From Basfia succiniciproducens (GTDB lineage Bacteria; Pseudomonadota; Gammaproteobacteria; Enterobacterales; Pasteurellaceae): DNA of 64,000 nt. Below the pieces are notes generated by a model, which worked only from the letters and a program-made list of their open reading frames with translations, was not told the DNA's origin and ran no database searches. The translations under genes and the position numbers were made by a program. The stretch covers positions 124,001-188,000 of the forward strand of contig NZ_CP015031.1 of assembly GCF_011455875.1 (NCBI RefSeq), given 5' to 3'. This document shows positions 10,071-39,593 of this stretch, one piece after another (the first letter of the stretch is position 1; each line of letters begins with the position of its first letter).

Positions 10071-10079
10071 AGGCAGAAA

Positions 10080-10511: not shown

Positions 10512-10634
10512 AGTGAAATAGACTATTCGTCGCTAATCAAGCGCATAAAATTCTGCAAAAACTCACCGCACTTTTACCCGCATTATGATAGAATCGCCGA
10601 TAATTTTGTGAATCTCCGGGTGTTTTTATTGATG

Positions 10635-14198: not shown

Positions 14199-14723
14199 AT
14201 GCGTAAATTCATTAAATATTTTCTGCTAACGGTGGTTTTTGTATTCCATGTTGTTTTATTTGCAGGGATTAACTACGTATTCCCTCATTATGAAACCACC
14301 AAAATCACAGGCGTTGAAGTAAAACGTGTGGATAAAGACGGTCCGATAACCAAAGCTAATCCCGCCGACGGTCCGACCCGTGACGTTTATTATATTTATA
14401 CTCAGCAACCGGACAAACAAAAACCGATGGTTTACCGTAACGAAGATACGCGCTGGGGATTTCCTTTCTATTTCAAATTCGGTTCCGCCGATTTACAGGC
14501 TAAAGCCTCGACCTTTGCGCAGGATCAACGGCTGGTAGAAATAAAATATTATGGCTGGCGAATTGTGATGTTTGACGAATTCCGTAATGCCGTATCAATG
14601 CGGGAAGTGACGGAAGATTCGGGCTCTCATCCGATTTTAAGTTATATTTTCTATTTTTTAGGCATAATTACTTTATTTTTCTCCATTCAATTAATTCGTG
14701 GCTGGTTTGACAGCGAAGCATAA
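14199..14723 (+). CDS. DUF1523 family membrane protein
   Basis: A 174-residue protein with a membrane helix near each end (about 5-27 and 147-168) and a soluble part between, probably in the periplasm. The central part (GVEVKRVDKDGPITKANP, DVYYIYTQQPD, EDTRWGFPFYFKFGSADLQA, VEIKYYGWRI) matches the DUF1523 family, which has no assigned function. The ATG at 14199 is chosen because AAAAGG lies eight bases before it; a GTG three codons upstream is possible. It follows tatD by 30 bases. Confidence 0.78.
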   Translation: MRKFIKYFLLTVVFVFHVVLFAGINYVFPHYETTKITGVEVKRVDKDGPITKANPADGPTRDVYYIYTQQPDKQKPMVYRNEDTRWGFPFYFKFGSADLQAKASTFAQDQRLVEIKYYGWRIVMFDEFRNAVSMREVTEDSGSHPILSYIFYFLGIITLFFSIQLIRGWFDSEA

Positions 14724-14809
14724 GAATAAGGGCGCTAACGGCCTCCTGCTTTTCATTTAGGCGTCCTTAAATAAAGGTTAAGGCGCGAAGTAGAGTAAAA
14801 AAGAAAATT

Positions 14810-23233: not shown

Positions 23234-24031
23234 CTATACAATATCGGTTTTCTCGCCTTTTGCGATATGCAGCTTAACTTTATGCTGTTTGATCATATTT
23301 ACAATAGAGACCGGCGGGAGATCATCGGTAAATATATCGGAAACATCTTTTAGGTTTAAAAGCTCTACGGCGGCAGAGGTGAAGAATTTAGATCTATCAA
23401 GCGCCACGATGACTTTCTTGGAATTTGCTTTCATAGCCTTAACCATTGATACTTCATTGATATCAAAATCCAATAAGGTTCCGTCTTCCGCGATGGCGCC
23501 GACGCTGGTAATTAAATAATCAGCTCTGAAATGACTGATAAAAGTAAGTGCGTCAGGGCTGACAATGCCGCTGTTGTGAGATCGAACAATACCGCCTACG
23601 GTAATCACTTCCAGGTTTTTGTTTTGATAAAGCGAATTAGCGACTCTTAGACTATTTGTAATAATCCTGATGTTATTTTTATTTTCCAATGCTTTTGCAA
23701 TATATTCAACCGTGGTGCCGATTGTGATGAAAATTGTTGAACCGTCAGGAATATAGTCGGCGATAGCCTGTGCGATAAGTTTTTTTTCTTCAATGTGAGT
23801 GGTTTCTCGTATGGAAAAATCCGTATTAATAAGACTTGGGATTTTCCCTGCTCCACCATGATGACGAGAAACTAACCCCTGTTGGCTGAGCGCTCTGATG
23901 TCGCGCCGGATAGTTTGAGTTGTGACGCCTAATTGGCTTGCTAATTCTTCGTTACTTATATATCCGTTGGAGATAACTAATGCAATTAATTTATCATGTC
24001 TAGGATTTCCAGTTAAGCCAGTATAATTCAT
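23234..24031 (-). CDS. yihW: DeoR-family regulator of sulfoquinovose genes, YihW/CsqR-like
   Basis: A 265-residue DeoR/GlpR-type repressor. Residues about 5-60 form the winged helix (TGNPRHDKLIALVISNGYIS, then LGVTTQTIRRDIRALSQQGL); the C-terminal DeoRC sugar-binding part starts at DGSTIFITIGTTVEYIAKAL. The sequence resembles E. coli YihW (CsqR) along its length, including the LTGNPRHD start and the RHHGGAG linker. CsqR represses the yih genes until sulfoquinovose or a derivative binds. Here it is next to yihV on the same strand, with its own promoter between them, and probably controls the divergent cluster. Confidence 0.88.
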   Translation of the reverse strand: MNYTGLTGNPRHDKLIALVISNGYISNEELASQLGVTTQTIRRDIRALSQQGLVSRHHGGAGKIPSLINTDFSIRETTHIEEKKLIAQAIADYIPDGSTIFITIGTTVEYIAKALENKNNIRIITNSLRVANSLYQNKNLEVITVGGIVRSHNSGIVSPDALTFISHFRADYLITSVGAIAEDGTLLDFDINEVSMVKAMKANSKKVIVALDRSKFFTSAAVELLNLKDVSDIFTDDLPPVSIVNMIKQHKVKLHIAKGEKTDIV

Positions 24032-24143
24032 AGATTGTTGCCTTAGTGAGTTTGGATATTTTTAGAAATTACGGATGTTTTTTATATAACTTAATGTGAT
24101 CGCTTAATTTTAGTATTATACGGGTCAAATCTCCGTAAGCCTT

Positions 24144-24152
24144 ATTATAACA
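24144..24152 (-). promoter_or_regulatory. Extended -10 promoter of yihW
   Basis: On the minus strand TGTTATAAT forms an extended -10 element (TGnTATAAT) in the 142-base gap upstream of yihW. No good -35 is seen at the normal distance, which is usual for extended -10 promoters. Confidence 0.45.
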
Positions 24153-24173
24153 GAAGTATTCTCAATCAATAGC

Positions 24174-25067
24174 CTATTGTTCCGTTAAAAATAACTTAAC
24201 TTGCTGTAGATTAGGAATACCTTGTCGGCCACCGGACATTGTACATTTTAATGCCGCCACTGCGGTGGCAAATTCAACAGTTTGCTGCAAAGTATATTTA
24301 TGTGCTAAAGCATAGGCAAATGCACCATGGAATACATCACCGGCTCCTGTCGTATCGACAACTTTCACTTTAAACGCATCGTAATGTTTTTCCTTATTAT
24401 CTTCAAGCCAAAAGCAACCTTTGCTTCCTTTGGTTACATAAACATGCCCTTTGCAGAGTTGTTTAGCAATATTGAGCGCTTGGCTGGTTTCGGTTGAATT
24501 AGTGAGTTTTGTTAAGCCCGGTTCGGAAAAAACGGCATGATCGACTAAAGAGACTAATTTTGATATATCTTGCGGTGTGATATCCGCATCAAGGATGGTC
24601 GGTATATTTAATTGTTTGGCTTTTTTTAGACAGTATTCCGTTCCTTCATGCCATCTTACATCACACAATATTGCATCATACTGAGAAAAATCAATATGTT
24701 CCAGCCATTGGGTTTCCGTAAGTAAATCAGGGCTAGGGTAGTTTATAATTAAACGTTCGCCTTGGTTATCAACCAAAATCGCAGATTGAGATGAACGGGC
24801 GTTATCGTATATTCTTATAAAATCCGTATTGACTCCATAAGATTTTAATTCGGCAATAATTGTAGCACCCGTCGCATCATCGCCAACCCGCCCGATAAAA
24901 TCGACATTGGCGCCGAGTTTAGCTATGGCGACTGCAGCAGTTGCCGCCGGTCCTCCGCCGACTTCTTTGTAATCTTTAGCGACAAATTTCCCTCCGGTTG
25001 TCGGAATGCTATCTACGTAATAAATTTTATCTTGAACGGCAATTCCGACACAGGCTATTTTTTTCAT
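24174..25067 (-). CDS. yihV: Sulfofructose kinase
   Basis: PfkB-family kinase of 297 residues that phosphorylates 6-deoxy-6-sulfofructose at C1 using ATP, the second committed step of the sulfo-EMP pathway. The start KKIACVGIAVQDKIYYVDSI, the glycine-rich EVGGGPAATAAVAIAKLGA (about 37-55), GERLIINYPSPDLL, DADITPQDIS and the catalytic DTTGAGDVFHGAF match E. coli YihV almost segment by segment. It is divergent from yihU and shares the promoter region. The assignment rests on full-length resemblance and on its neighbours. Confidence 0.92.
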   Translation of the reverse strand: MKKIACVGIAVQDKIYYVDSIPTTGGKFVAKDYKEVGGGPAATAAVAIAKLGANVDFIGRVGDDATGATIIAELKSYGVNTDFIRIYDNARSSQSAILVDNQGERLIINYPSPDLLTETQWLEHIDFSQYDAILCDVRWHEGTEYCLKKAKQLNIPTILDADITPQDISKLVSLVDHAVFSEPGLTKLTNSTETSQALNIAKQLCKGHVYVTKGSKGCFWLEDNKEKHYDAFKVKVVDTTGAGDVFHGAFAYALAHKYTLQQTVEFATAVAALKCTMSGGRQGIPNLQQVKLFLTEQ

Positions 25068-25131
25068 ATAGGCTCCCTTTCTGTTCTGTTAGAAATTATT
25101 TTAAATATTACTCTATTTAAATTTTCAAAAA

Positions 25132-25147
25132 AGTGATCTGTGTCACT
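25132..25147. promoter_or_regulatory. CRP-like palindrome in the yihV-yihU divergent promoter
   Basis: AGTGATCTGTGTCACT is a near-perfect palindrome with GTGA-N6-TCAC, eight of ten CRP consensus positions. It lies 65 bases from the yihV start and 78 bases from the yihU start, so it could serve both directions. Confidence 0.6.
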
Positions 25148-25190
25148 TTACTTACTTTATTTTTATAAATATTATATAAAAAGAAAATAA

Positions 25191-25206
25191 ATGAACATTA
25201 ATGAAC
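25191..25206. repeat. ATGAAC direct repeat before yihU
   Basis: ATGAAC occurs at 25191-25196 and again at 25201-25206, one helical turn apart, just ahead of the yihU ribosome binding site. DeoR-family repressors often use such direct repeats, so this is a weak candidate operator for the YihW-like protein. Confidence 0.3.
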
Positions 25207-25224
25207 TTTTAGTAAGGAGCTATT

Positions 25225-26124
25225 ATGGCAAATATTGCATTTATAGGGCTGGGTCAAATGGGGGCTCCTATGGCCACAAATTTATTAACAAAAGGACATC
25301 GGTTAAAGGTATATGATATTAACTCTTCGGCAGTAGACAAGTTGGTGGAAAAAGGTGCGTCAGCTGCCAAGAATCCTGCTGACGCGGCAAAGGATGCGGA
25401 TTTTGTTATCACGATGCTGCCAAATGGAAAGTTGGTTGAAAATGTCCTTTTTGATGCCGATACCGGCGTTGTAAATTCAATCGGTACTAATGCTTTAATT
25501 ATTGATATGTCAACGATTCATCCTTTTGAAAGCGATCAAATTCGAACTCGATTACAGTCATTAAATATTGAATTTATGGATGCCCCTGTAGGCCGTACTT
25601 CTGATAACGCTATTGCAGGAACCTTGCTTATTTTAGCCGGCGGCACAAGCCAACAGGTAGAAAAAGCCCATGATATTTTACTTTGTATGGGATCCGAAAT
25701 AGTGAATACCGGTGGTCCGGGTAAAGGAATTAGAGTGAAATTAATTAACAATTTTATGAGTATTTCTTTAAATGCATTATCGGCGGAAGCGGCGACTTTA
25801 TGCGAAGCACTTGAATTGCCTTTTGATGTCGCAATGCAAGTAATGCAGGGAACACCGGCAAGCAAGGGACATTTTACCACAACCTGGCCAAATAAAGTTT
25901 TGAAAGGTGATTTGTCGCCAGCATTTATGATTGATTTAGCACACAAAGATCTTGGTATTGCGTTGGATGTTGCAAATCAGTTACACGTTCCGCTTTCAAT
26001 GGGGTCGGCATCAAGAGAAATCTATAGCCAGGCCAGAGCTATGGGAAGAGGAAAACAAGATTGGACAGCAATTCTGGAACATATTCGTTTTTGTTCGGGA
26101 ATGAAAAATAATTCACTTTCGTAG
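25225..26124 (+). CDS. yihU: 3-sulfolactaldehyde reductase
   Basis: A 299-residue member of the beta-hydroxyacid dehydrogenase family. It reduces 3-sulfolactaldehyde with NADH to 2,3-dihydroxypropane-1-sulfonate (DHPS), the end product of sulfo-EMP. The Rossmann motif [13 protein letters not shown] is at the N-terminus; PVGRTS (R124) corresponds to the sulfonate-binding arginine and GIRVKLINN carries the catalytic K172. Long stretches such as [20 protein letters not shown] equal the E. coli protein. TAAGGAGC gives a strong start. yihT follows 10 bases later. Confidence 0.94.
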
Positions 26125-26134
26125 GAGATTTATA

Positions 26135-27004
26135 ATGGAAAAATATACCGTTAAAGATATTGCCAGAGCTTCGGGCGGTTTCTCAATGTTGGCCGTGGAT
26201 CAACGTGAAGCGATGCGATTAATGTTTGCTGCGGCGGGTATGCCCCATGCGGATAAAGACATTACAGAGTTTAAAGTCAATGCTGCCAAAATTCTTTCCC
26301 CTTATGCCTCGGCCGTGCTTGTAGATAATCAATTTTGCTATAAACAAATTGTTGAACAACAGGCAATCTCGCCTAAATCTTCGATGATTGTTGCCGCAGA
26401 TCAGTTTATTCCCGGCAACGGTATTCCGGTAGATAACGTATGTATCGATAAAGCAATCAATCCTTTTGAGGCCAGAAAAAACGGAGCAAAAGCATTAAAG
26501 CTACTAGTGTTATGGCGTCAGGATGAGGATGCCGAACAACGTAAAGCGATGGTCAAAGAATTTAATGAAATCTGTCATTCTGCCGGCCTAGTCAGTATTA
26601 TCGAGCCCGTTGTTCGCCCGCCAAGAATCGGTGATAAATTTGATCGGGAGCAGGTGATTATTGATGCGGCAAAAGAGCTGGGTGATTCCGGTGCGGATTT
26701 ATATAAGGGTGAAATGCCTTTATTTGGTAAAGGTGATTCCAAAGCATTATTGGATGCGGCAAAACGTCTTAATGATCAAATCAATATGCCGTGGGTAATT
26801 TTATCTTCCGGGGTTGAAGCTAATTTATTTTGTCGCGCTGTCCGTATTGCAATGCAAGCCGGCGCTTCGGGATTCTTAGCCGGTCGGGCGGTATGGTCCT
26901 CCGTTATCGGCTTGCCTGATACAAATCTAATGTTACAAGATATTTCAGTTCCTAGATTGCAACATTTAGGCGATATTGTTGATGAATTAATGGCATCAAG
27001 ATAA
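26135..27004 (+). CDS. yihT: 6-deoxy-6-sulfofructose-1-phosphate aldolase
   Basis: Class I aldolase of 289 residues that splits sulfofructose-1-phosphate into DHAP and 3-sulfolactaldehyde. The Schiff-base lysine is K191 in [17 protein letters not shown]. The start ([20 protein letters not shown]), [15 protein letters not shown] and [19 protein letters not shown] match E. coli YihT; a related fold is LacD tagatose-bisphosphate aldolase, but the sulfonate neighbourhood decides for YihT. The residue after the catalytic KG (Gly) differs from Val in the E. coli protein. It is in an operon with yihU and yihQ. Confidence 0.94.
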
Positions 27005-27014
27005 TGGTTTAATT

Positions 27015-27050
27015 AAGAAATAGCTATTTATTTTTTTATAGCTATTTCTT
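27015..27050 (+). repeat. 13-bp perfect hairpin between yihT and yihQ
   Basis: AAGAAATAGCTAT (27015-27027) and ATAGCTATTTCTT (27038-27050) pair perfectly around a 10-base T-rich loop. No T-run follows the stem. It has the same stem and loop length as the hairpin before kdgK and sits in the same kind of place. Confidence 0.7.
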
Positions 27051-27072
27051 ACTAAGTTTGGGAGATGAATAT

Positions 27073-29088
27073 ATGGAACTTCGCCAACTTGATAATGGGT
27101 TTGAACTTATTCAGAATGAACTTGTTGTTTTAGTTCACAGCTATGATAATCCCGCATTTTTTGTCGGTATCGGTAATGAGAAAATAGAAATTTACCGAGG
27201 TAATTTTTCTATTGAGGATGCCGTTCAGGAACGTATCCCTCTAAGACATAGCCGTATTGAAGATGATGCCGTTTATTTGTCTTATGATCATAATACTCCG
27301 GTATTGCTTTGCCTTCATTTTGAGAAATTGACGGAACGGGATGCTAAGTTAACTATAGATTCTCAACATTCTCAGTTAAACCGTTTTTGGGTGAGAGTGA
27401 ATGCAAAAGAAAATGACAAAGTGTGGGGTTGCGGCGAACAAATGTCATATTTTAATCTTCGTGGCAGACATTTCCCTTTATGGACGTCAGAACCGGGTGT
27501 AGGACGTGATAAAACCACTGAGATTACATTTTTATCAGACAAATATAATAAAGCCGGCGGAGATTATTACCATACTAATTATCCTCAACCCACATTTATT
27601 TCTTCGCAACATTACGCTTGTCATGTCAATAGCACGGCTTATTCCGATTTTGACTTCCGCCATTCTAACTATCATGAACTTCATACCTGGGAAATTCCGG
27701 AATCCATTGAGTTTTATACGGATACAACGTTCTTAAATATTGTTGAAAAATTAAGCTTGCGTTTTGGCCGTCAGCCTAAATTACCGGAATGGATTTATAA
27801 CGGTGTCATTCTCGGCTTAAAGGGCGGGGAAGAAAATTCTTTTTCGCGTATGGAAAATGCGGTGAATAGAGGTGTTAAAGTCGCCGGCTTATGGAGTGAA
27901 GACTGGGCCGGAATCAGACAGACTTCATTTGGCAAACGTTTGTTTTGGGATTGGAAATGGAGCACTAAGAGATACCCTAATTTAGACAGAAAAATCCGGG
28001 AGTTGAAACAGAAAAACATACGTTTTCTTGCTTACATTAGCCCGTATTTATGCGAAGACGGCGAGCTATATCCGATCGCTAAAGAGCTGGGGTTATTTGC
28101 ATTGAATAAAAAAGGTGAAGTCGCTTTAGTCGATTTTGGCGAATTTAATTGCGGGGTATTGGATTTTACTAATGAAAAAACCCGATCTTGGGTGAAATCG
28201 GAAATTATTCAAAAGAATATGTTGGATCTCGGTATTTCAGGCTGGATGGCGGATTTTGGTGAATATTTGCCGACAGAAGACTTATATTTACATAATGGCG
28301 TGGATGCGAAATTAATGCACAATGCCTGGCCGTCATTATGGGCGAGTGTGAATGCCGAAGCCGTTGCGGAACGAGGCTTAACGGGTGAAATAATGTTCTT
28401 TATGCGTTCGGGCTTTAGTGGCTCTCAAAAATATTGTCCGATGTTATGGGCTGGCGATCAATGCGTTGATTTTTCCCGTCATGACGGTTTAAACACAGTG
28501 ATTTGCGGCGCGTTATCTTCCGGATTGTTGGGTAATGCATATCATCATAGCGATATTGGCGGATATACGAGTTTGTTTGGTAACAGACGTACTAAAGAAG
28601 TGTTTGAACGTTGGGTTGATATGGCTGCATTTACCCCAATGATGAGAACGCACGAAGGTAATCGTCCTGATGAAAATTTTCAATTTGATCAAGATGTTAA
28701 CACAATTGAACATTTGGCTAGAATGACAAGGATTTATTGTCATTTAACTCCTTATTTAAAATCTCTTGTGGATGAAGCCGGTATGAAAGGCTATCCTGTG
28801 CAACGCCCGTTATTTGTCCATTTTGAACATGATTTCAATACCTATGATATTCAGGATCAATATATGTATGGCAATGATTTACTTGTTGCACCGGTACATA
28901 AAAAAGACGTAACCGAATGGACAGTTTATTTACCGGCTGGGGAAACTTGGGTGCATCTTTGGAACGCACAAGAAATTCAAGGCGGACAATCTATCACGGT
29001 ACCCGCACCAATTGGAAAAACGCCGGTTTTTTACCGCAGAAACAGCCAATGGAGAGGATTATTTGAAGAGATAAAAAATATTTCCTGA
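27073..29088 (+). CDS. yihQ: Sulfoquinovosidase, GH31
   Basis: Family GH31 retaining glycosidase of 671 residues that removes sulfoquinovose from sulfoquinovosyl glycerol. By alignment to E. coli YihQ the nucleophile is D394 (GWMADFGEY) and the acid/base is D462 (LWAGDQCVDF). The sulfonate-recognising residues are kept: R289 and W292 in GKRLFWDWKW, and Y498 in SDIGGYTS. Two further positions are K250 and E276 where E. coli has Gln and Gln, placing it in the KERWY-type subgroup. No signal peptide, so it acts in the cytoplasm. The ATG at 27073 follows GGGAGATG. Confidence 0.94.
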   Translation: MELRQLDNGFELIQNELVVLVHSYDNPAFFVGIGNEKIEIYRGNFSIEDAVQERIPLRHSRIEDDAVYLSYDHNTPVLLCLHFEKLTERDAKLTIDSQHSQLNRFWVRVNAKENDKVWGCGEQMSYFNLRGRHFPLWTSEPGVGRDKTTEITFLSDKYNKAGGDYYHTNYPQPTFISSQHYACHVNSTAYSDFDFRHSNYHELHTWEIPESIEFYTDTTFLNIVEKLSLRFGRQPKLPEWIYNGVILGLKGGEENSFSRMENAVNRGVKVAGLWSEDWAGIRQTSFGKRLFWDWKWSTKRYPNLDRKIRELKQKNIRFLAYISPYLCEDGELYPIAKELGLFALNKKGEVALVDFGEFNCGVLDFTNEKTRSWVKSEIIQKNMLDLGISGWMADFGEYLPTEDLYLHNGVDAKLMHNAWPSLWASVNAEAVAERGLTGEIMFFMRSGFSGSQKYCPMLWAGDQCVDFSRHDGLNTVICGALSSGLLGNAYHHSDIGGYTSLFGNRRTKEVFERWVDMAAFTPMMRTHEGNRPDENFQFDQDVNTIEHLARMTRIYCHLTPYLKSLVDEAGMKGYPVQRPLFVHFEHDFNTYDIQDQYMYGNDLLVAPVHKKDVTEWTVYLPAGETWVHLWNAQEIQGGQSITVPAPIGKTPVFYRRNSQWRGLFEEIKNIS

Positions 29089-29225
29089 GTATCTGTTTGT
29101 TAAATAGAATGAAAAATAAAATTTGAATTACGTCACATTTGTTGATTTTTTATGTTGTTTTGGTTTTTCATTTTTGTAATTATTTGTTTGTTTGTGATTT
29201 ATTATTGAATATACGAGGTGATAAA

Positions 29226-30470
29226 ATGAAATGGATTAATACGCTTGCACATAATCGCTGGTTAGAAACAGAAACGGACCGAATTTTTGAATTCGGTCGA
29301 AAATCTGTTGTGCCGACCGGGTTCGGATGGATTGGAAACAACGGTAATATTAGAACGGAAATGGGAACTCAGTTATGGATTACCGCCAGAATGTTGCATG
29401 TTTATTCTCTGGCCGCATTGATGGGACGTCCCGGTGCTTATAAATTAGTCGAACATGGCATTACATCTTTATTAGACGGCAAGTTGCGAGATAAAACTTA
29501 CGGCGGCTGGTATGCCAATGTAAATGATGCAGAAGTTATTGATTCCTCAAAACAAGGTTACCAACATTTCTTTGTTTTACTTGGTGCGGCGAGTGCTATG
29601 ACAACCGGCCACCCAAGAGCAAAAGAGTTATTAGAAGAGGCAATTTCAGTTATTGAAAAATACTTCTGGAGCGAACAAGAACAAATGTGTCTTGAGTCTT
29701 GGAATGAGATATTTAGTAAAACGGAAGAATACCGCGGGGGGAATGCAAATATGCATGCGGTTGAGGCGTTTTTGATTGTTTATGATGTGACTAAAGATAA
29801 AAAATGGCTTAACCGTGCGGTCAGAATTGCTTCCGTTATTATTCATGACGTTGCACGAAATAATCATTATCGTGTAAACGAACATTTTGATCCGAATTGG
29901 AATCCGATTCTTGATTATAACAAAGATAATCCGGCAAGCCATTTCAGAGCCTATGGCGGAACACCGGGACATTGGGTTGAATGGGGTAGATTGATGTTGC
30001 ACCTCAGAGCAACATTGCAATCCATCGGTGAAGATGTGCCGGAATGGTTATTAGAAGATGCTAAAAATTTATTTTCTGCCGGTGTTAGAGATGCGTGGTC
30101 GGTCGATGGTGCGCAAGGGTTTGTTTATACGGTGGATTGGGAAGGAAAACCGGTGGTCCGAGAACGTATTAGATGGGTTATCGTGGAAGCTATGGGAACA
30201 GCCTATGCGCTATACACGGCAACCGGTGATGCCGTATATGAAAAATATTATCAAGAATTTTGGGATTATTGCCGTGAATATTTAATGGATTATGAAACAG
30301 GTTCCTGGTGGCAGGAATTAGATGTTAATAATAAAGCTTCCAGCAAAGTATGGGATGGCAAACAGGATATTTATCATTTAATGCACTGTCTATTAATCCC
30401 AAGATTACCTCTTACTCCGGGGCTTGCACCGGCGCTTGCCCAAGGATTATTAGATAAAAATGCTAAATAA
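29226..30470 (+). CDS. yihS: Sulfoquinovose isomerase
   Basis: A 414-residue (alpha/alpha)6-barrel aldose-ketose isomerase of the AGE family; it converts sulfoquinovose to sulfofructose (and can act on mannose in E. coli). The sequence follows E. coli YihS (413 residues) throughout: [47 protein letters not shown] with a conserved His, and the C-terminal [14 protein letters not shown] with another. The ATG at 29226 has GAGGTG six bases upstream; the frame is open for 29 hydrophobic codons before that, which look like non-coding T-rich DNA. Confidence 0.94.
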
Positions 30471-30481
30471 CAGGCAAATAA

Positions 30482-30509
30482 GGGTTCTTTAAATTAAAGA
30501 ACCCTTTTT
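30482..30509 (+). terminator. Internal terminator between yihS and the epimerase gene
   Basis: GGGTTCTTTA (30482-30491) and TAAAGAACCC (30495-30504) form a perfect stem with a 3-base loop, followed by TTTTT. Only 21 bases separate the T-run from the next start, too few for a promoter, so it probably acts as an attenuator that lowers expression of the following genes. Confidence 0.75.
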
Positions 30510-30530
30510 ATAAAAGGGTGGGAGATTATT

Positions 30531-31586
30531 ATGCAAGTAAATCTAGATATTTTTGGTCAAGTAAATAATCAACAGGTTGATTTAATTACCATACAAAATA
30601 GCCGTCAAACCAGTATTCAGATCACTAATTACGGATGTATCGTTACATCAATAAAAACGGAAGATAGAAATCACCATATTGATGATATTGTGCTTGGTTA
30701 TGAATCTTTAGATAAATATGTTCAAGGGCATCCTTTTTTTGGTGCTATTGCCGGAAGATTTGCAAATCGAATTAACAACGGTAGATTTTCCATTGATGGT
30801 AAATTGTATCAATTAGAATGTAATGAAGTTACAACGAATCAACATTTGCATGGCGGAAACAAGGGATTCGATAAATATGTCTGGGCATATGATATTGAAG
30901 AAAACACAGACAAAATTATGGTACATTTTCATAGAGTGTCTGTAGATAATGAATCCGGATATCCGGGTAACCTTTTTGTTACGCATTCAATTGGTTTAGA
31001 TGAAAATAACCAGATTTATTATGACTTTAGGGCAATAACGGATAAACCGACTATCGTTAATTTAGCCAATCACAGTTACTACAATCTATCCGGCTATAAC
31101 CATTCTTCAATTGTTGATCACGAATTAAAAGTGTTTAGTGATTTTTATACGCCGGTCAATGGTAAATTAATTCCGACCGGTGAAATTCTTTCCGTATCCG
31201 GTACGCATTTAGATTTTAGAGAATTTGCCAAAATCGGCGATAATATGAGAAAACATCCCACAGGCGAAATTGATCATAATTTTATTTTAAAAGGTGAGAT
31301 GTTTAATAAAGATTATAAGTTTGCCGCTGAATTGTATGATCCTAATAGCGGACGTTGCATGACGGTAATAACCACACAACCCGCATTACAAATTTATAAT
31401 GGGTCCAAATTATCGAATAAATGTTGGATTGGACGGAATGGATTTAGATATGAATCTTTTCAAGGTATATGTTTTGAGACACAGCACTATCCTGATAGCC
31501 CTAATTTTGTTCATTTCCCATCTTGTTTGTTAAAACCGAACCATGTTTATGAACAAAAAAACATTCATAAATTAGCGGTTCGGTAA
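30531..31586 (+). CDS. galM: Aldose 1-epimerase, GalM type (probable sulfoquinovose mutarotase)
   Basis: A 351-residue mutarotase of the beta-sandwich GalM family. Catalytic residues are intact: H107 in NQHLHGGNKGF, H181 in NLANHSYYNLSG and E316 in ICFETQHYPDSPN. E. coli uses YihR, a shorter family member of about 308 residues, at this place in its cluster. The protein here looks like ordinary galactose mutarotase, so its action on sulfoquinovose is inferred from its position between yihS and the transporter genes. It could also be a true GalM. Confidence 0.85.
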   Translation: MQVNLDIFGQVNNQQVDLITIQNSRQTSIQITNYGCIVTSIKTEDRNHHIDDIVLGYESLDKYVQGHPFFGAIAGRFANRINNGRFSIDGKLYQLECNEVTTNQHLHGGNKGFDKYVWAYDIEENTDKIMVHFHRVSVDNESGYPGNLFVTHSIGLDENNQIYYDFRAITDKPTIVNLANHSYYNLSGYNHSSIVDHELKVFSDFYTPVNGKLIPTGEILSVSGTHLDFREFAKIGDNMRKHPTGEIDHNFILKGEMFNKDYKFAAELYDPNSGRCMTVITTQPALQIYNGSKLSNKCWIGRNGFRYESFQGICFETQHYPDSPNFVHFPSCLLKPNHVYEQKNIHKLAVR

Positions 31587-31608
31587 CAAAAATTAACGGG
31601 ATTTCATT

Positions 31609-32349
31609 ATGTTAGATTTTTATATTATTACTATTGCGCTGATAATCGGGCTTGGTAGTTTTACTCAAGGGCTAACCGGATTTGGTTTGGCATTAATATC
31701 CGTTCCTTTATTGTCATTAGTTATTGATGTTAAACAGGCCATTCCCGTTGCAGGGATATTTGGCTGGCTAGTCACTTTTCCCATTGTTTTTAAAATGAGA
31801 GAACATATTCAATGGAAGATTGGTTTAATTTTATTTGTCGGTTCTTTGCCCGGCTCATATTTAGGCGCGAGCTTATTAAAACAACTTCCTTCAAGCGTTA
31901 TTTTAAGTGCGATGGGAATTGTGTTGATTTTAGCGAGTATATATTCGTTGATATCTAAGGCTACTTTATTTAAATATCCTTCAAAAATTATTAGTTTAAT
32001 CGTCGGTTTTTTTTCCGGTGCTCTCGGTGCTACAGTCGGCGAACCCGGTCCTCCGGTAATCGCTTACACCTCAATGCTTCCTTGGACAAATGATCAAACA
32101 AAATCTACATTGGTTTTTTTCTTTATGTTGCAAATGATAGGTGCAATACTTGGATTTTGGTCAAAAGGATTGTTAACTAATGAGGTGTTTCTTCATGTTG
32201 TTCATTCCATTCCGCTATTTATTGTCGGATTAATTATCGGGTTGAAAGCATATCATCTACTCAATAAATATAATTTTAATTACCATAAAATTATCTATTC
32301 ATTATTAATTATTATTGGTTTTGTCTTGCTAATTAAAGGCATAAAATAA
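31609..32349 (+). CDS. TauE/SafE-family permease (probable DHPS exporter)
   Basis: A 246-residue inner-membrane protein with about eight membrane segments and the two glycine-rich repeats of the TauE/SafE (sulfite exporter) family: GLGSFTQGLTGFGLALISVPLL near the N-terminus and GFFSGALGATVGEPGPPVIAYT at about 135-155. Members often accompany sulfonate metabolism. In this cluster the sulfonate end product DHPS must leave the cell, and no YihP is present, so this is the best candidate exporter. It starts 22 bases after the epimerase gene. Confidence 0.8.
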   Translation: MLDFYIITIALIIGLGSFTQGLTGFGLALISVPLLSLVIDVKQAIPVAGIFGWLVTFPIVFKMREHIQWKIGLILFVGSLPGSYLGASLLKQLPSSVILSAMGIVLILASIYSLISKATLFKYPSKIISLIVGFFSGALGATVGEPGPPVIAYTSMLPWTNDQTKSTLVFFFMLQMIGAILGFWSKGLLTNEVFLHVVHSIPLFIVGLIIGLKAYHLLNKYNFNYHKIIYSLLIIIGFVLLIKGIK

Positions 32350-32365
32350 TTTATCGTAATAAAAA

Positions 32366-32399
32366 AACAACACAATAACTAAATATTGTGTTGTTTTTT
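32366..32399 (+). terminator. Strong terminator after the TauE gene
   Basis: AACAACACAATA (32366-32377) and TATTGTGTTGTT (32384-32395) form a perfect 12-base stem around ACTAAA, with T residues after it and A residues before it. It separates the catabolic genes from the TRAP genes. Confidence 0.88.
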
Positions 32400-32437
32400 G
32401 TTTTATTTCGAATTAAAAAAAACATTTTTTGTTTATT

Positions 32438-32453
32438 TGTGATCTTTTTCACG
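32438..32453. promoter_or_regulatory. CRP site upstream of the TRAP genes
   Basis: TGTGATCTTTTTCACG matches TGTGA-N6-TCACA at nine of ten conserved positions. It lies 76 bases before the dctQ-type start in a 180-base gap that follows a strong terminator, so the TRAP genes probably have their own, CRP-activated promoter. Confidence 0.65.
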
Positions 32454-32528
32454 TTTTTTATTTATAAAAGTTGTTAATATCCAAACCATGCTAGTAATGC
32501 ATTAGTTATTAGTAGTAAGGGAGGATAT

Positions 32529-33041
32529 ATGTCTTTTTTAAAACAGATTGAATTATTACTTTCTAAAATCAACACGCCTATTGCTAATGCCGGGCGGCTG
32601 ATTGGCGGCGCTTTACTTGCCGTAATGACCGCTATTGTATTAGTACAGGTATTTTGTCGATATTTATTTCAGAGTCCGTTGAGTTGGACAGATGAATTGT
32701 CTTGCTACCTGATGATTTACATGACATATCTTTGTATGCCGCTAATTTATCTGGAAGATAAAAATATAGCAATGACGTTTCTCACGGAAAAAATCCAAGG
32801 CACAAGAATAAGCCATTTATTATTATTTTTTGTTCATATCCTAGCGCTCATCCTGTTTATTGTATGGATTTATTTTGGATGGCAATTTTTCTTAAAAGGA
32901 AATGTGATGGCAAATAGTTTGCCAATTAAGATGTACTATGTGTACATCGCTCCTCCATTATTCTTTTCTATTACCTGCTTATCAATTCTTCAAAAGATTG
33001 TCAGCGAGTTAAATAAGTTTGTTAATTATCAACCTGAATAG
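32529..33041 (+). CDS. TRAP transporter small membrane subunit (DctQ type)
   Basis: A 170-residue protein with four membrane helices of the DctQ family. GGALLAVMTAIVLVQVFCRY and SPLSWTDELSCYLMIYMTYL (about 27-75) are the usual landmarks. It partners the large DctM subunit. GGGAGGA nine bases before the ATG gives a strong start. It is the first gene of the DctQ-DctM-DctP set. Confidence 0.92.
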   Translation: MSFLKQIELLLSKINTPIANAGRLIGGALLAVMTAIVLVQVFCRYLFQSPLSWTDELSCYLMIYMTYLCMPLIYLEDKNIAMTFLTEKIQGTRISHLLLFFVHILALILFIVWIYFGWQFFLKGNVMANSLPIKMYYVYIAPPLFFSITCLSILQKIVSELNKFVNYQPE

Positions 33042-33055
33042 ATAGAGAGGTTTAT

Positions 33056-34345
33056 ATGGTTTCACCTATCTTTATTTTATATTTCTTAATTTTATTGTTA
33101 ATTGGTGTTCCTGTTTTATTTTCATTAGGATTATCCCCGATTATTGCACTCTTTCAGGATGATAAAATCTTATTTATCAATATGCTGTATCAAAGATTAT
33201 ATTCCGGGTTAGACAGTTTCTTATTATTGGCATTGCCATTTTTTATGTTAGCCGGTGAACTAATGGTTAACGGTGGTATCACAAATCGAATAGTTACTTT
33301 TTCTCAAACAATGGTGCGGCATTTAAAAGGCGGATTAGGTCATGTTGTGATTCTTGCCGCAACAATGTTTGGTGCGTTAACCGGATCTGCCGTAGCCGCA
33401 ACTTCAGCTATCGGTAATATGCTTATTCCTGAAATGGAACGTTATAAATATGATAAAACTTATGCTGCCGCATTAACGGCAGCCGCAACGGTATTGGGTA
33501 CGATTATCCCGCCAAGTGGTATTATGCTGATCTATGCTTTTGTAATGAATACTTCTGTTGCAGCTATGTTTATGGGCGGTGTTGTTCCGGGCATTATTCT
33601 TTGCATCGGATTAATGGTTATAAATAATTTACAAATTAGAAAATATCCTGCTGTGCAACAGTTTGAAAGGGCATCCCAAGCGGAACGTTGTGCCGGTTTT
33701 AAAATGGCAATCTTACCTTTATTAACGCCAATTATTATTTTAGGCGGGATTTACGGTGGTATTTTTACTCCGACGGAAGCGGCGGCGGTAGCGGTATTCT
33801 ATGCGTTGATTTTATCTGTTTGGATTATGAAACATTTAAAATTTAAAGATATTTTACCTATGTTTGCCCGAGTAGGTGTAAACGCGGCAGCAATTCTTAT
33901 CATTGTTGCGGCGGCAAGCGGGTTTGCTTCCGCGGTAAGTTTGTCCGGTGTCGCTAAACAAGTAACAACATTTCTGTATTCCATCAGTGATAATAAATAC
34001 GTACTTTTTTTTATCGTTAATATTTTCTTATTTATTATTGGAATGTTTTTAGATGCAGGTCCCGCAATCTTAATTTTTGCCCCGATTTTAGCGCCGATTA
34101 TGACGAATGTCGGTATTGACCCGGTTCATTTTGGTGTTGTTATGGTCTCTAACTTATCAATAGGCTTAGCGACACCGCCGATGGGGTTAGTTTTATTTGT
34201 TGCATCGGGTGTGTCGGGAGTGCCGCTACAAAAAATTTCTAAAGCAATTCTTCCGTTCTTATTTATTGAAATGTTGATCATATTGCTTATGTCGTTTTTC
34301 CCGCAAATTGTCATTGGATTACCACAGGTTTTAGGTCTAATGTAA
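33056..34345 (+). CDS. TRAP transporter large membrane subunit (DctM type)
   Basis: A 429-residue permease with about 12 membrane segments that uses a sodium or proton gradient. It carries DctM landmarks: LLALPFFMLAGELMVNGGIT, GALTGSAVAATSAIGNMLIPEM (about 104-125), ATVLGTIIPPSGIMLIYAF and GIFTPTEAAAVAVFYAL, plus LATPPMGLVLFVASGVSGV near the end. It begins 14 bases after the DctQ gene and is followed by the binding-protein gene. Confidence 0.94.
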   Translation: MVSPIFILYFLILLLIGVPVLFSLGLSPIIALFQDDKILFINMLYQRLYSGLDSFLLLALPFFMLAGELMVNGGITNRIVTFSQTMVRHLKGGLGHVVILAATMFGALTGSAVAATSAIGNMLIPEMERYKYDKTYAAALTAAATVLGTIIPPSGIMLIYAFVMNTSVAAMFMGGVVPGIILCIGLMVINNLQIRKYPAVQQFERASQAERCAGFKMAILPLLTPIIILGGIYGGIFTPTEAAAVAVFYALILSVWIMKHLKFKDILPMFARVGVNAAAILIIVAAASGFASAVSLSGVAKQVTTFLYSISDNKYVLFFIVNIFLFIIGMFLDAGPAILIFAPILAPIMTNVGIDPVHFGVVMVSNLSIGLATPPMGLVLFVASGVSGVPLQKISKAILPFLFIEMLIILLMSFFPQIVIGLPQVLGLM

Positions 34346-34393
34346 TTATTAATATTATCTAGTTTATTAAAAACTGTTATGAGGATATTTACT

Positions 34394-35446
34394 ATGAAAG
34401 TTAAAAAAATGCTTGTACTTAGTGCGCTTATTGCCGGTTTTACTTCAACCTATGCCGCAGCGGAATATAAATTTACCGTTCCGATTGTGACAAATACGGA
34501 CAGCTATAATTATCAGTCATTATTAGTTTTTAAAAATATTGCGGAGTCTCATTCTAATGGAGAAATTACGGTTGATATTTATCCCAGCGGGCAATTATGC
34601 GGTAATGCAAAGGAATGTCTAGCCGGTGTTCAAGCGGGAATGTTTGATTATTTCCAAACAACCATTCCCGAATTGGCTTATTACTGGAAACCTATGGCAG
34701 GTTTTGACCTTCCTTATTTGTTACCGGATGACAGAACCGCAGAATGTGTATATGACGACAAAGATTTCTTATCCGGCGTTCGTACTAATGTGTTAAAGAC
34801 AACAAACAATTTAAGATTAATGATGGTTTCCAATTCAGGCGGTTGGCGGAATATTGCCACGACTAAGAAACCGGTGCATGCACCTACAGATGTCAAAGGG
34901 CTAAAACTAAGAACCGTTCCCGCTCAAATTCAACAGGAATTGGTAAAAGCGCTTGGTGGCGCACCGACACCAATTGCTTGGCCCGAAGTTTATACCGCAT
35001 TATCAACCGGTATGGTAGATGGTACTAAAAACGGTATTGTAGATATTGTTCAAATGAAGTTTCATGAAAGCTTAAAACATATCACCCTTGACGGTCATGC
35101 TTATATGGGTGGTGCATGGGTAATGAATAATGATAAATTTAATTCTTTACCGGATCATTTGAAAAAAGTAGTCATTGATGCCGTAGTCGCTCAAAACCAG
35201 TATTTGAGAGCGTATCCGAAATGGAAAGAATTTGATGCTTATGAAGAATTCAAAAAAGCGGGAGGTACAATATATAGTCCTAATGCTCAAGAGAAAGAAA
35301 CTTTCAAAAATGCCTCTAAAGTTGTGATAGATAATTATGTGGCGAATGCGGATGACGAGAGTAAAGATTGGTTAAATAAATTTGAGTCTCAAATCAAAGC
35401 TTGTGAAGCAAAAATTGAACAAGAAGATAAAGCGGCGTTACAGTAA
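34394..35446 (+). CDS. TRAP transporter substrate-binding protein (DctP type)
   Basis: A 350-residue periplasmic binding protein. A signal peptide (about 1-24, ending STYAAAE) precedes the DctP fold. The conserved arginine that grips an acidic group lies in GLKLRTVPAQIQQELV, followed by the family segment PIAWPEVYTALSTGMVDGTKN. Cysteines in LCGNAKECL and near the C-terminus could form disulfides. Position beside the sulfo-EMP genes suggests a sulfonate ligand such as sulfoquinovose or its glyceride; this is inference. The ATG at 34394 follows GAGGA; an upstream ATG at 34379 is less likely. Confidence 0.88.
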   Translation: MKVKKMLVLSALIAGFTSTYAAAEYKFTVPIVTNTDSYNYQSLLVFKNIAESHSNGEITVDIYPSGQLCGNAKECLAGVQAGMFDYFQTTIPELAYYWKPMAGFDLPYLLPDDRTAECVYDDKDFLSGVRTNVLKTTNNLRLMMVSNSGGWRNIATTKKPVHAPTDVKGLKLRTVPAQIQQELVKALGGAPTPIAWPEVYTALSTGMVDGTKNGIVDIVQMKFHESLKHITLDGHAYMGGAWVMNNDKFNSLPDHLKKVVIDAVVAQNQYLRAYPKWKEFDAYEEFKKAGGTIYSPNAQEKETFKNASKVVIDNYVANADDESKDWLNKFESQIKACEAKIEQEDKAALQ

Positions 35447-35510: not shown

Positions 35511-36593
35511 TTATCTGGAGACAACTTCTTTAGTAAATGCTTCCATTTCTGCTTTTCTCCATGGGGTAGAGAAGAACAGGGTATCTCTTTTACCGGATTC
35601 GCTATCCAGAGGTCGGACGCCGAATTCCTGACTTAATTTTTGTTGTACTTCAGGTGAAGTAAGCCAATGAATAAATACTAATGATGCAGCGGGATTAGGT
35701 GCATTTTTGGCAATGGTCGCAACATTACCGCCCCCCGGCATACCGAATTGAGGTACATAGAATTTTAAACGGGTTGTGATAGCGCCTTGTTTTTGTAAAC
35801 TGAACAAGTGATCCTGCCAGGCCGAAACAAGAACTAACTCACCGTCATTTAAACGGGTCAGGCTATCGGCGTTAGAGGCGGTACGAATCATGACATTTTT
35901 ACGGGCATTAAACCATTCCCAGGTTTTTTTCCAGTTGGCTACTTGTGCCGCATCTACCGTAGGTGTCATATAATCATATTCACCGTTTACATAAACCAAT
36001 GCGCGCTGGATAAAGGCATTTCCCGAACTGCCGCCGTTAGGGTCGGAATAGCCGAATTTTTTAGGATTTTGTTGGATATAATTTTCTACGTCTTGCCAGC
36101 TTTGAGGGAGTTGATCTTCTGTAATCCGTAGCGGATCATATGCAAAACCGGTTTGATTTCCCCAGTAACCGACGGCGGTTTCACCTAAATCCACACCTTG
36201 TAAGAAATGATTTAATTTACCGAAATTCGGTAACTGTTTGATGTTTGCCAATACGCCGTTATTTGTCACATTGCTAACCCGATCCGCACTGAGTACAACA
36301 ACGTCCATTTTCCCTTTTTCTAAATTTTTTTCAGCAATAAGTTTATTGATATTGCCGTCTAAAGTACCTTCAGGCACTTTTACCTGAATACCGTATTGTT
36401 TTTCAAATTCTTTTACGAATATGCGGAATTGGGGTTGTAAATACCATACGCTGACGGTCAGTTTGCCCTCTTTCTTAGCTTGAGCTTCAATATCAGGCCA
36501 AGATTTATCGGTTAAATTTTCCGCCTGCGCAAAGTTTGCTACGGCGAGCGCCGTAATGGTGAGGGATAAGGCTTTTCGTAATATGTTTCGCAT
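35511..36593 (-). CDS. ABC transporter substrate-binding protein
   Basis: A 360-residue periplasmic binding protein with a signal peptide ending VANFAQAE (about residue 25). It belongs to the broad iron/polyamine/phosphonate cluster of family-1-like binding proteins: KKEGKLTVSVWY, YGIQVKVPEGT, DVVVLSADRVSN, and the C-terminal PNPAASLVFIHWLTSPEVQQ segment. The ligand is not clear; it lacks obvious metal-binding tyrosine pairs, and the set could carry a polyamine, an aminophosphonate or a sugar derivative. It is the last gene of a four-gene operon. Confidence 0.75.
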   Translation of the reverse strand: MRNILRKALSLTITALAVANFAQAENLTDKSWPDIEAQAKKEGKLTVSVWYLQPQFRIFVKEFEKQYGIQVKVPEGTLDGNINKLIAEKNLEKGKMDVVVLSADRVSNVTNNGVLANIKQLPNFGKLNHFLQGVDLGETAVGYWGNQTGFAYDPLRITEDQLPQSWQDVENYIQQNPKKFGYSDPNGGSSGNAFIQRALVYVNGEYDYMTPTVDAAQVANWKKTWEWFNARKNVMIRTASNADSLTRLNDGELVLVSAWQDHLFSLQKQGAITTRLKFYVPQFGMPGGGNVATIAKNAPNPAASLVFIHWLTSPEVQQKLSQEFGVRPLDSESGKRDTLFFSTPWRKAEMEAFTKEVVSR

Positions 36594-36616
36594 AGATTAC
36601 TCCTTGCTTGTGTTAA

Positions 36617-37465
36617 TTATGCTTTTCCTGTGGATTGAGATAAATAATTACCTTTTAATAATTTTTCGATAATCATCATTAATATAATGTTCGGTACCAA
36701 TAAAATAATAGAGACTACGGCTGCATTCGGTCTGATGAACGAATAACCTAAGAACGAATATAAAATTGTCGGCACGGTAATAAAGTCAGGCGAACCGATA
36801 ACAAAAGAGATAGCGAATTCTTCAATACTTTTCACCAGACAAAAGATGATTGAGGCGAGGAAGCTCGGTTTTAACATCGGCATATAAACGTCTTTAAAAA
36901 CGGTGAATTTTGACGCGCCTAAATCTCGGGAGGCCTCTATCAGATCCTGTGGTACGGAGGAGAAACCGGCGGACAGAATACGAATGGCATAAGGCAAGGT
37001 TAATACGACATGCCCGATGACAATACCAACGAACGGGTTACTGATATTTAAATCCAATAGCATTCGGCTGAAAAATAATGCGATGATCATACCGGGAATA
37101 ACCAATGGAATTAGGGTGAGTAATTCGGCAATTTTTTTCCCTCTGAATTCCATTCGCCCGAAAGCGTAAGCCGTAGGAATAGATAGGCTAATAGTAATCA
37201 AGGATACCGTCGGTGCTATGGTATAACTATTAAACATGGCTTCCGGCAAGGAAGTGTTTTCCCATACCATTTGCCAGCGTTCCAACGAGAGTGACGGCGG
37301 GAGAATATCCGGATAACTCCAAGGCTGTTTAGGATCAACCAAAGACCATAACCCAGCCATTAAAAACGGTAAAACCAGCCAAATAAAATTCACTAAAACA
37401 AAGAAAGTAAGAGAAATCCGGGCAATTATTTTGCTGTTTTTGGTTGTAATTTTAGCTGAACTCAT
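36617..37465 (-). CDS. ABC transporter permease (PotC-like)
   Basis: A 282-residue inner-membrane permease with six predicted helices. The EAA loop is EASRDLGASKFTVFKDVYMP (about 186-205), which contacts the ATPase. It resembles the second permease of polyamine-type importers. It overlaps the upstream permease gene by an ATGA-type junction (37462-37465), so the two are translated together. Confidence 0.88.
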   Translation of the reverse strand: MSSAKITTKNSKIIARISLTFFVLVNFIWLVLPFLMAGLWSLVDPKQPWSYPDILPPSLSLERWQMVWENTSLPEAMFNSYTIAPTVSLITISLSIPTAYAFGRMEFRGKKIAELLTLIPLVIPGMIIALFFSRMLLDLNISNPFVGIVIGHVVLTLPYAIRILSAGFSSVPQDLIEASRDLGASKFTVFKDVYMPMLKPSFLASIIFCLVKSIEEFAISFVIGSPDFITVPTILYSFLGYSFIRPNAAVVSIILLVPNIILMMIIEKLLKGNYLSQSTGKA

Positions 37466-38331
37466 TTTATGTCTCCCCGTTTAACCGCTAACGGTTTGAT
37501 TATGATTGATACTAATATTGTGAAAAAAGCGGATGTTAACATAATCATCATCGCCATTACGGCACTTTGATTCCATTCTTCAAATTCATAAGCGGACATT
37601 TGCATTAAGCGCGCTAAAGAATAAGTACTGCGGGGACCTGCAATACTGTAAAAGGCAAAATCGCCTAATGCGCCGATAAAAATTAATATGAAGGAAACCT
37701 GCACCGCAGTTAAAGTCAGCGGAAAAATAACATAACGGAAACGTTGCCAGGAGGTTGAACCTAAATTAGCTGCGGCATCCAATAGATCCGTTTTCAGTGA
37801 GTTGACCGCTCCGCCAATTAAAATCAAAGCAAAAGGAATATTTTTCCACATTTGCAGAATAACGACCCCCCAACCGAATTCGTCATTTTGTAATGTTTTG
37901 GGTTCATGCCAAATACCTAAAAATACCATGGTTTCATTTAAGATACCGTGGTAAGAAATCATATTGACAAAAAGAAACGCGGCGACTAATCCGGGGACTA
38001 ACATTGGAGCGCGCAGGATAGTAATGATAGTGACTTTTGCCGGTAATTCGTTGCGTAACCACATAGCTATCGGGTAAGAAACAATAATAGAAAGAATTGC
38101 GCCTAATAATGAGACTTTAACCGAATAAATATAGGAGCTCTGAAAGACCGAATTAGTTAGCACATCATGCCAATATTGCAAGGTGAAACGGCTGTCTTCA
38201 CCGCTTATATTATATAAACCGAGGCTTTGAGTGACGACAATGTAAAAGGTCGACCCCATAAGAAACAGAATCGTACCTAAACCGCTGCATAATAATAACC
38301 ATGCTTTTAAATCTTTTTTTATCCCTTTCAT
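37462..38331 (-). CDS. ABC transporter permease (PotB-like)
   Basis: A 289-residue permease with six predicted helices and an EAA loop at DAAANLGSTSWQRFRYVIFP. It corresponds to the first permease of polyamine or Fe(III)-type importers. Its start overlaps the end of the ATPase gene by four bases, and its end overlaps the next permease, giving tight stoichiometric coupling. Confidence 0.88.
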   Translation of the reverse strand: MKGIKKDLKAWLLLCSGLGTILFLMGSTFYIVVTQSLGLYNISGEDSRFTLQYWHDVLTNSVFQSSYIYSVKVSLLGAILSIIVSYPIAMWLRNELPAKVTIITILRAPMLVPGLVAAFLFVNMISYHGILNETMVFLGIWHEPKTLQNDEFGWGVVILQMWKNIPFALILIGGAVNSLKTDLLDAAANLGSTSWQRFRYVIFPLTLTAVQVSFILIFIGALGDFAFYSIAGPRSTYSLARLMQMSAYEFEEWNQSAVMAMMIMLTSAFFTILVSIIIKPLAVKRGDIK

Positions 38332-39401: not shown

Positions 39402-39593
39402 GTCCGTTTGCTCCATACATCTTTTACTCTATTTTAAGTAAGGATTACGCTCGGAACCGGAAAAAGTCAATATACAAGGGAAGGGTAAGTTTAAAACTGT
39501 GATTTTTCTCACAAAGTTGAGGAAGGTGAGGTTAAAATTTAGACAGAAATAATCTATATAATATAATTTAATTTATGCTGAGAAACAGGGACT

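Follow-up and report, generated by a model that had tools for sequence, protein, structure and literature searches.

Results

A sulfo-EMP locus with a TRAP transporter

A 64,000-nucleotide stretch of the Basfia succiniciproducens genome (contig NZ_CP015031.1, positions 124,001 to 188,000; the whole stretch is called the window, and unlabelled coordinates refer to it) carries at 23234-35446 genes for the degradation of sulfoquinovose (SQ), encoded together with the DctP, DctQ and DctM subunits of a tripartite ATP-independent periplasmic (TRAP) transporter. As judged from the encoded proteins, this region is a complete sulfo-Embden-Meyerhof-Parnas (sulfo-EMP) locus, which confirms the initial annotation of this DNA. 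The best overall explanation, to which we give a probability of about 0.87, is a complete sulfo-EMP locus with the TRAP transporter as its uptake system. DctPQM is very probably an importer of SQ or of its glyceride, sulfoquinovosyl-glycerol (SQGro), that displaces the Escherichia coli transporter YihO.

Homologues of YihW (CsqR), YihV, YihU, YihT, YihQ and YihS were present as annotated, with 50-77% identity to the E. coli K-12 proteins (62-77% for YihS, YihV, YihT and YihU, the last at 70%), and the top Protein Data Bank (PDB) matches of YihV, YihQ, YihT, YihS and YihU were chains named after those enzymes or genes. Mapping onto the E. coli enzymes showed that the catalytic residues named in the initial annotation (YihT K191, YihU R124 and K172, YihQ D394 and D462) were all correct. 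YihQ R289, W292 and Y498 were also kept; they match E. coli R301, W304 and Y508, which we take to be the sulfonate-binding residues. Other substrate-binding residues were conserved as well. Among the residues compared, YihQ 276 and 250, YihT 79 and YihS 239 were unlike those of E. coli.

YihO and YihP had been reported missing from the cluster, and indeed E. coli YihO, YihP, YihR and OmpL had no match at E≤1e-5 among the 18 window proteins compared. The source genome is a single contig of 2,253,194 bases, and a genome-wide search for an intact YihO that could do the import from elsewhere found none. The PF13347 (GPH/MFS_2) model matched one protein strongly, at 242 bits, and two more weakly, at 25 and 18 bits; the strong match was the one examined further. 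The strong match was rejected as YihO: it is only 26% identical to YihO, scores 756 bits on the MelB model (cut-off 456) and adjoins MelR, and is thus MelB.

The TRAP genes accompany the SQ genes in Pasteurellaceae

In a set of 140 Pasteurellaceae species genomes from 43 genera, YihQ (at least 73% identity), YihT (E≤1e-40) and a DctP of the window type (E≤1e-60) were each present in nine. These were the same nine genomes, spread over six genera, and none of the remaining genomes had such a DctP at this threshold. G030, the other genome from the genus of the window, lacked all three proteins. The neighbourhood that the initial annotation proposed to look for, yihQ and yihS beside dctP, was recovered in every carrier: csqR, yihV, yihU, yihT, yihQ, yihS, galM, tauE and dctPQM were clustered together in 9/9 loci. 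The TRAP genes follow tauE in the window, Conservatibacter and Cricetibacter; they follow csqR in Lonepinella, Pebbles2 and Gallibacterium, and they lie between yihS and galM in Chelonobacter, Testudinibacter and Pasteurella testudinis. Because the linkage was kept through three gene arrangements, the TRAP transporter and the SQ enzymes appear to share a function. The comparison does not show the gut or rumen setting that had been suggested, the named relatives including Lonepinella koalarum, Gallibacterium salpingitidis, Chelonobacter oris and Testudinibacter aquarius.

DctP and YihO exclude each other

Among the matches listed for the 140 Pasteurellaceae genomes, none to YihO exceeded 30% identity. 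A second sample took in 394 genomes spread evenly over the order (YihS at E≤1e-120, DctP and YihO at E≤1e-60). YihS was present in 17 of them, eight with a window-type DctP and nine with YihO; no genome had both and none had neither. These 17 are not independent, as the genomes of the order are mutually related and at least four (G000, G034, G227 and G486) recur in other sets. The DctP was encoded at most about 4 kb from yihS in seven of the eight genomes and about 18.5 kb away in the eighth (G454). In one further sulfo-EMP cluster (L108, genome G381), which encodes a divergent YihO (48%), dhaKLM/gldA-like genes separate yihS from csqR; the stretch examined there showed no TRAP genes.

The linkage extends beyond Pasteurellaceae

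Named genomes were scanned with a nine-sequence DctP alignment and two short peptide patterns, a search whose loci are no census. Of the 39 loci obtained, 31 had a DctP at 64-81% identity and eight at 22-27%. All of the former, from Pasteurellaceae, Vibrio, Pseudovibrio, Reinekea and Alginatibacterium, carried yihQ (503-1170 bits), and no yih gene was found in the latter. In the 23 loci outside Pasteurellaceae, yihQ begins 70-282 bases past the dctP match. YihT had no match in any of these 23 loci, several of which end at contig or stretch edges, so that absences are weak; a class II aldolase was present in 15 of them. Excerpts of a paper on sulfo-EMP2 give such an aldolase as SqiA (PMC9594981). 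An SftI-like isomerase homologue replaces YihS in four loci, all of Pseudovibrio, and the only one scored, in L067 and with a broken frame, fell short of the SftI model's cut-off of 700, at 150 bits. The class II aldolase and SftI-like isomerase genes of Vibrio and Pseudovibrio clusters lie, in two of the loci, at L064:7081-7941, L067:5241-6095 and L067:6583. As far as gene content tells, the TRAP linkage outlasts the exchange of YihT for a class II aldolase and of YihS for an SftI-like isomerase.

Glycerol or dihydroxyacetone enzymes were encoded in 11/23 loci outside Pasteurellaceae, some of the matches lying near the outer edges of the stretches. A DhaR homologue alone was found in five more; the L068 match is weak (26%), and DhaR identity was established for Vibrio mediterranei. 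These genes fit the release of glycerol from SQGro by YihQ and SQGro as the cargo. Dihydroxyacetone kinase, glycerol dehydrogenase or DhaR genes lie near yihQ at L067:13420-18905, and downstream of yihQ in L071, L073 and L083.

A sister TRAP clade stands in sulfo-SMO clusters

A plasmid search returned 14 records that match DctP at E≤1e-40, all of which were inspected. Nine of these plasmids, from Roseicitreum, Rhizobium SL42, two Roseivivax, Salipiger, three Ruegeria and Paracoccus seriniphilus, carry a DctP at 40-46% identity in a cluster for the SQ monooxygenase (sulfo-SMO) pathway. This clade came from the plasmid search, and the scan of named genomes gave no SMO-linked locus. In the SMO-type clusters, genes for a luciferase-like (LLM-class) monooxygenase, an aldo/keto reductase and a flavin reductase are followed by dctQ-dctM-dctP, with GntR and Gfo/Idh/MocA genes opposite. 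In Ruegeria TM1040, the monooxygenase matched PDB 7olf/7oh2 (E 1e-204 and 5e-198), the aldo/keto reductase 7bby/7bbz and the Gfo/Idh/MocA protein 8zn9/8qc2. The PDB titles themselves are generic or different; we take 7olf/7oh2 to be SmoC, 7bby/7bbz SmoB and 8qc2 the GH188 sulfoquinovosidase. Sulfo-EMP and sulfo-SMO have SQ and SQ glycosides in common, and not 2,3-dihydroxypropane-1-sulfonate (DHPS), so that the cargo of a transporter linked to both pathways is most simply SQ or SQGro. Two further plasmid DctPs, at 31-33% identity, stand in unrelated gene contexts.

The binding protein

A tree of 53 proteins placed the EMP-linked DctPs (35) and the SMO-type DctPs (9) in one fully supported group each, the joins among the long outgroup branches being unsure. 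Duplicate loci of the same genomes and three identical proteins were removed before counting; the SMO-type set includes the Qingshengfaniella protein and just one of the two identical Roseivivax proteins. The genome of the window encodes seven further DctPs, of which six fell outside both groups and one, L004, failed the cut for the set.

Residues were mapped through an alignment with the isethionate-binding protein IseP, whose ligand contacts were taken from excerpts of PMC11668362. The Arg/Arg/Asn that bind the anion in TRAP binding proteins are present in the window DctP (R152, R173 and N213), and with W196 they are invariant in 35/35 EMP-linked and 9/9 SMO-type proteins. Lys212 is found in all 35 EMP-linked and in seven of the nine SMO-type proteins, and Glu stands at the same place in 7/8 outgroup DctPs. 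At the positions of IseP Tyr153, Leu221 and His244 the window protein has Gly149, Asp217 and Gly240, the last being Ala in the SMO-type set. This suggests a pocket with more room and a hydroxyl contact, which would suit a larger, hydroxyl-rich ligand. The AlphaFold model of DctP, of high confidence (pLDDT 87.9), was closest in fold to SiaP and IseP. An attempt to identify the ligand from sequence and fold failed, as the fold search ranked sialate binders and IseP alike and both arginines are kept in all eight outgroup proteins.

Vibrio maerlii and V. hangzhouensis each encode two SQ-type DctPs, one by yihQ and one by dctQM (L072:6802-7848 and 9935-10984; L078:6789 and 9935). The dctQM-side proteins group (100/100) with a Photobacterium protein from a locus in which no yihQ was seen, and the window DctP lies outside that group. 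This suggests that the two Vibrio proteins may be an SQGro binder and an SQ binder sharing one membrane unit.

Regulation

A CRP-like palindrome, GTGA-N6-TCAC, was aligned in the yihV-yihU gap of 9/9 Pasteurellaceae loci. It occurs at four places in the window (seven strand matches, versus 0.69 strand matches expected). The site upstream of the window dctQ has one mismatch, and similar palindromes lie 5' of dctQ in five relatives. A putative CsqR motif, whose seed was chosen by eye from the gap alignment, was trained on the yihV-yihU sites of the other loci, each locus's own site being excluded from scoring and the L045 and L046 sites being left out as unclear. The hit of this motif in the promoter gap of the TRAP genes or of yihS ranked second in 4/9 loci and third to sixth in three (of 39,770), and was weak in the window and in L046 (ranks 14 and 15). 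These ranks are suggestive of co-regulation of the TRAP genes by CsqR in 7/9 loci.

The permease TauE and the mutarotase

The initial annotation had TauE export DHPS. For Pasteurellaceae this fits the presence of tauE in 9/9 clusters, whose predicted sulfonate product is DHPS; a tally by stretches gave only 5/8, because three loci end before tauE and other stretches of the same genomes carry it. Outside the family the claim fared less well and the count speaks against it, TauE being found in only 8/23 loci within the stretches examined, with no match in the other 15. DHPS export by TauE is best called plausible, with partial support. TauE might instead move sulfite or another anion, DHPS leaving the cell by another route. 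The Cupriavidus necator TauE is a sulfite exporter according to the title of a paper, and the 15 loci that show no tauE also favour this alternative; against it stand the nine Pasteurellaceae clusters and the excerpts proposing that the TauE-type permeases of Arthrobacter and Enterococcus SQ clusters export sulfonates. We hold it to be possible, on balance doubtful.

The assignment of the epimerase as GalM-type was correct (PRK11055, 256 bits). YihR was ruled out as its identity by a score of 38 bits on the YihR model, versus 617 for E. coli YihR. The galM gene was present in 9/9 Pasteurellaceae clusters, and the counterpart in V. mediterranei is likewise GalM-type. In Pasteurellaceae bacterium Pebbles2, galM and dctM are each in two frames (L046:5634-6685 and 14609-15894), by sequencing error or decay.

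Alternative explanations

TRAP systems are common in the B. succiniciproducens genome, which has seven other DctP genes, and the closest solved folds of the window DctP are mostly sialate binders; TRAP binding proteins mostly take carboxylates, according to the abstract of PMC4646407. The transporter could thus import a C4-dicarboxylate, a sugar acid or sialic acid and adjoin the SQ genes by chance or convenience. We consider this improbable, given the occurrence in the same 9/140 genomes, the three arrangements, yihQ in 31/31 loci, the exclusion of YihO, the link to a second SQ pathway and the six other DctPs of the genome that fall outside the clade. Uptake of DHPS or of another small sulfonate end product, retaken or scavenged, would be in line with TRAP systems known or proposed for taurine, sulfolactate and isethionate (PMC10507020, PMC11668362 and PMC6386719, seen as excerpts). 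Against it, the Gly149, Asp217 and Gly240 that replace the IseP contacts would suit a larger, hydroxyl-rich ligand, and the sister clade belongs to a pathway that is not known to make DHPS. Re-use of DHPS by a glycyl radical enzyme was also judged unlikely, as the genome has a single PFL-like gene, which leaves little place for an HpsG/HpfG DHPS-degrading branch beside the ordinary PFL. DHPS uptake seems to us slightly less probable again than uptake of an unrelated acid.

Several observations weigh against SQ or SQGro import by DctPQM. The two arginines of the binding site are kept in 8/8 outgroup DctPs, and DctP is only 19-29% identical to its 50 best fold matches among solved structures, so that sequence alone does not give the ligand. 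Two plasmid DctPs at 44-48% stand outside full SQ clusters, the Pacificitalea plasmid having no such genes and that of Qingshengfaniella having SmoC and GntR homologues only. Photobacterium DA100, another of the plasmid records, has a sulfo-EMP cluster with a DctP and no yihQ within 29 kb, so that SQGro would not be the cargo everywhere. The putative CsqR motif before the window dctQ is weak (rank 14 of 39968). Finally, the genome sets share members and their genomes are related by descent, so that the comparisons are not independent events. As a separate observation, the Pacificitalea manganoxidans plasmid (L097, 6870-9909) has its 48% DctP with dctQM outside an SQ cluster and a TauE gene about 8 kb off.

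Layout of the locus

All eleven genes are open frames at the coordinates of the initial annotation, within 23234-35446 (Table 1). The starts of yihQ and yihS are probably the ATGs at 27073 and 29226 rather than upstream TTGs, and dctP probably starts at 34394. An ATP-binding cassette (ABC) operon at 35511-39416 is convergent with dctP and adjoins it, with no indication of membership in the SQ cluster; the closest model of its ATPase is a putative 2-aminoethylphosphonate importer, with a score under the cut-off of that model.

Table 1. Features of the sulfo-EMP locus, in window coordinates; names of function are predictions.
Feature	Coordinates	Strand	Evidence
csqR (yihW), DeoR-family regulator	23234..24031	-	56% identity to E. 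coli CsqR; DeoR domains
yihV, sulfofructose kinase	24174..25067	-	62% to E. coli YihV; top PDB match 7ag6, E 5e-122
Divergent promoter region	25068..25224	.	CRP-like palindrome GTGATCTGTGTCAC at 25133-25146; putative CsqR site at 25180
yihU, sulfolactaldehyde reductase	25225..26124	+	NCBIfam equivalog NF012005, 506 bits (cut-off 348); R124, K172 kept
yihT, class I sulfofructose-phosphate aldolase	26135..27004	+	75% to E. coli YihT; PDB 7ag1/7ag7, E ~1e-142; K191 kept
yihQ, GH31 sulfoquinovosidase	27073..29088	+	50% to E. coli YihQ; NF007746, 956 bits (cut-off 553)
yihS, sulfoquinovose isomerase	29226..30470	+	77% to E. coli YihS; PDB 2rgk/7ag4; H249, H384 kept
GalM-type aldose 1-epimerase, replaces YihR	30531..31586	+	PRK11055, 256 bits (cut-off 240)
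TauE/SafE-family permease, candidate DHPS exporter	31609..32349	+	PF01925, 96 bits (cut-off 32.6)
TRAP promoter region	32350..32528	+	CRP-like site at 32438-32453, upstream of dctQ
dctQ, TRAP small permease	32529..33041	+	Weak YiaM small permease match, 40 bits (cut-off 260), and position; 65-75% in 8 relatives
dctM, TRAP large permease	33056..34345	+	TIGR00786, 407 bits (cut-off 268); PF06808; 87-91% in 8 relatives
dctP, TRAP substrate-binding protein, proposed SQ/SQGro binder	34394..35446	+	PF03480

Discussion

The claim that the TRAP transporter imports SQ or its glyceride is strongly supported by the co-occurrence with YihQ and YihT, the exclusion of YihO and the sister clade in sulfo-SMO clusters. 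We infer the ligand, the direction of transport, the sodium coupling, the TauE cargo and the regulation. DctP would bind SQ and/or SQGro in the periplasm, the sulfonate being held by Arg152, Arg173 and Asn213, and DctQM would import the ligand driven by the sodium gradient, as in known TRAP systems. In the cytoplasm YihQ would release SQ and glycerol from SQGro, and the GalM-type protein would mutarotate SQ. YihS, YihV and YihT would then yield dihydroxyacetone phosphate and sulfolactaldehyde, and YihU would form DHPS, which would leave the cell, probably via TauE. CRP and CsqR may control both the enzyme promoter and the TRAP promoter.

The locus equips a known pathway with what is probably a new form of transport, and the importer family is probably widespread. 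A broader proposal is that one hitherto undescribed TRAP family for SQ and its glyceride is spread over Pasteurellaceae, Vibrio, Pseudovibrio and Rhodobacterales and serves at least two SQ pathways, sulfo-EMP with either class of aldolase and sulfo-SMO, with some Vibrio using two binding proteins (SQGro on the yihQ side, SQ on the dctQM side) for one membrane unit; we lean towards this proposal, with clearly less assurance than for the window locus. If SQ import by TRAP is correct, a sulfonated hexose or a glycoside of it would be a class of substrate new to the TRAP family, which is known mainly for carboxylates. The transporter sequence could then serve to mark SQ uptake by marine and animal-associated bacteria, the uptake step would have been exchanged independently of the enzymes, and this poorly understood step would become directly testable.

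No TRAP importer for SQ was found in the open literature, in so far as it was seen in excerpts; closed papers on sulfo-SMO or on sulfosugar selectivity may mention one. The papers that contain both the sulfoquinovose and the TRAP terms concern, in the excerpts seen, taurine and sulfolactate (PMC10507020) and isethionate (PMC6386719). SQ-type import by ABC transporters is already known (excerpts of PMC8873060), as are import and export by transporters of the major facilitator superfamily.

Comparison with known systems

The window DctP shares with IseP the Arg-Arg-Asn triad, which in IseP serves a sulfonate ligand, whereas the two proteins are only 25-26% identical and IseP Tyr153, Leu221 and His244 are replaced by Gly, Asp and Gly. 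In excerpts on the Arthrobacter and Enterococcus SQ clusters, a TauE-type permease is proposed as sulfonate exporter, as in the window; TauE-type export has thus already been proposed for other SQ degraders, and the export half of the scheme is not new. Unlike the window, those clusters are Gram-positive, with ABC or other importers and other products. SQ clusters are also in print for Vibrio (V. scophthalmi and V. hangzhouensis); the published passages seen are without TRAP import, whereas the V. hangzhouensis locus (L078) has TRAP genes and the two DctPs described above.

The Agrobacterium sulfo-SMO cluster takes up the SQ glycoside SQGro with a binding protein-dependent importer, SmoEFGH (excerpts of PMC8873060), and binding protein-dependent uptake is also proposed here. 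SmoEFGH belongs to another family, the ATP-driven ABC transporters, whereas the window has a TRAP transporter, with a sister clade beside SmoC, SmoB and GH188 homologues in nine plasmid clusters. The E. coli yih cassette (ompL-yihOPQRSTUVW) and the window have in common the enzymes and their roles, the CsqR regulator and the catalytic residues. Where E. coli has YihO, YihP, OmpL and YihR, the window has DctPQM, TauE and a GalM-type epimerase.

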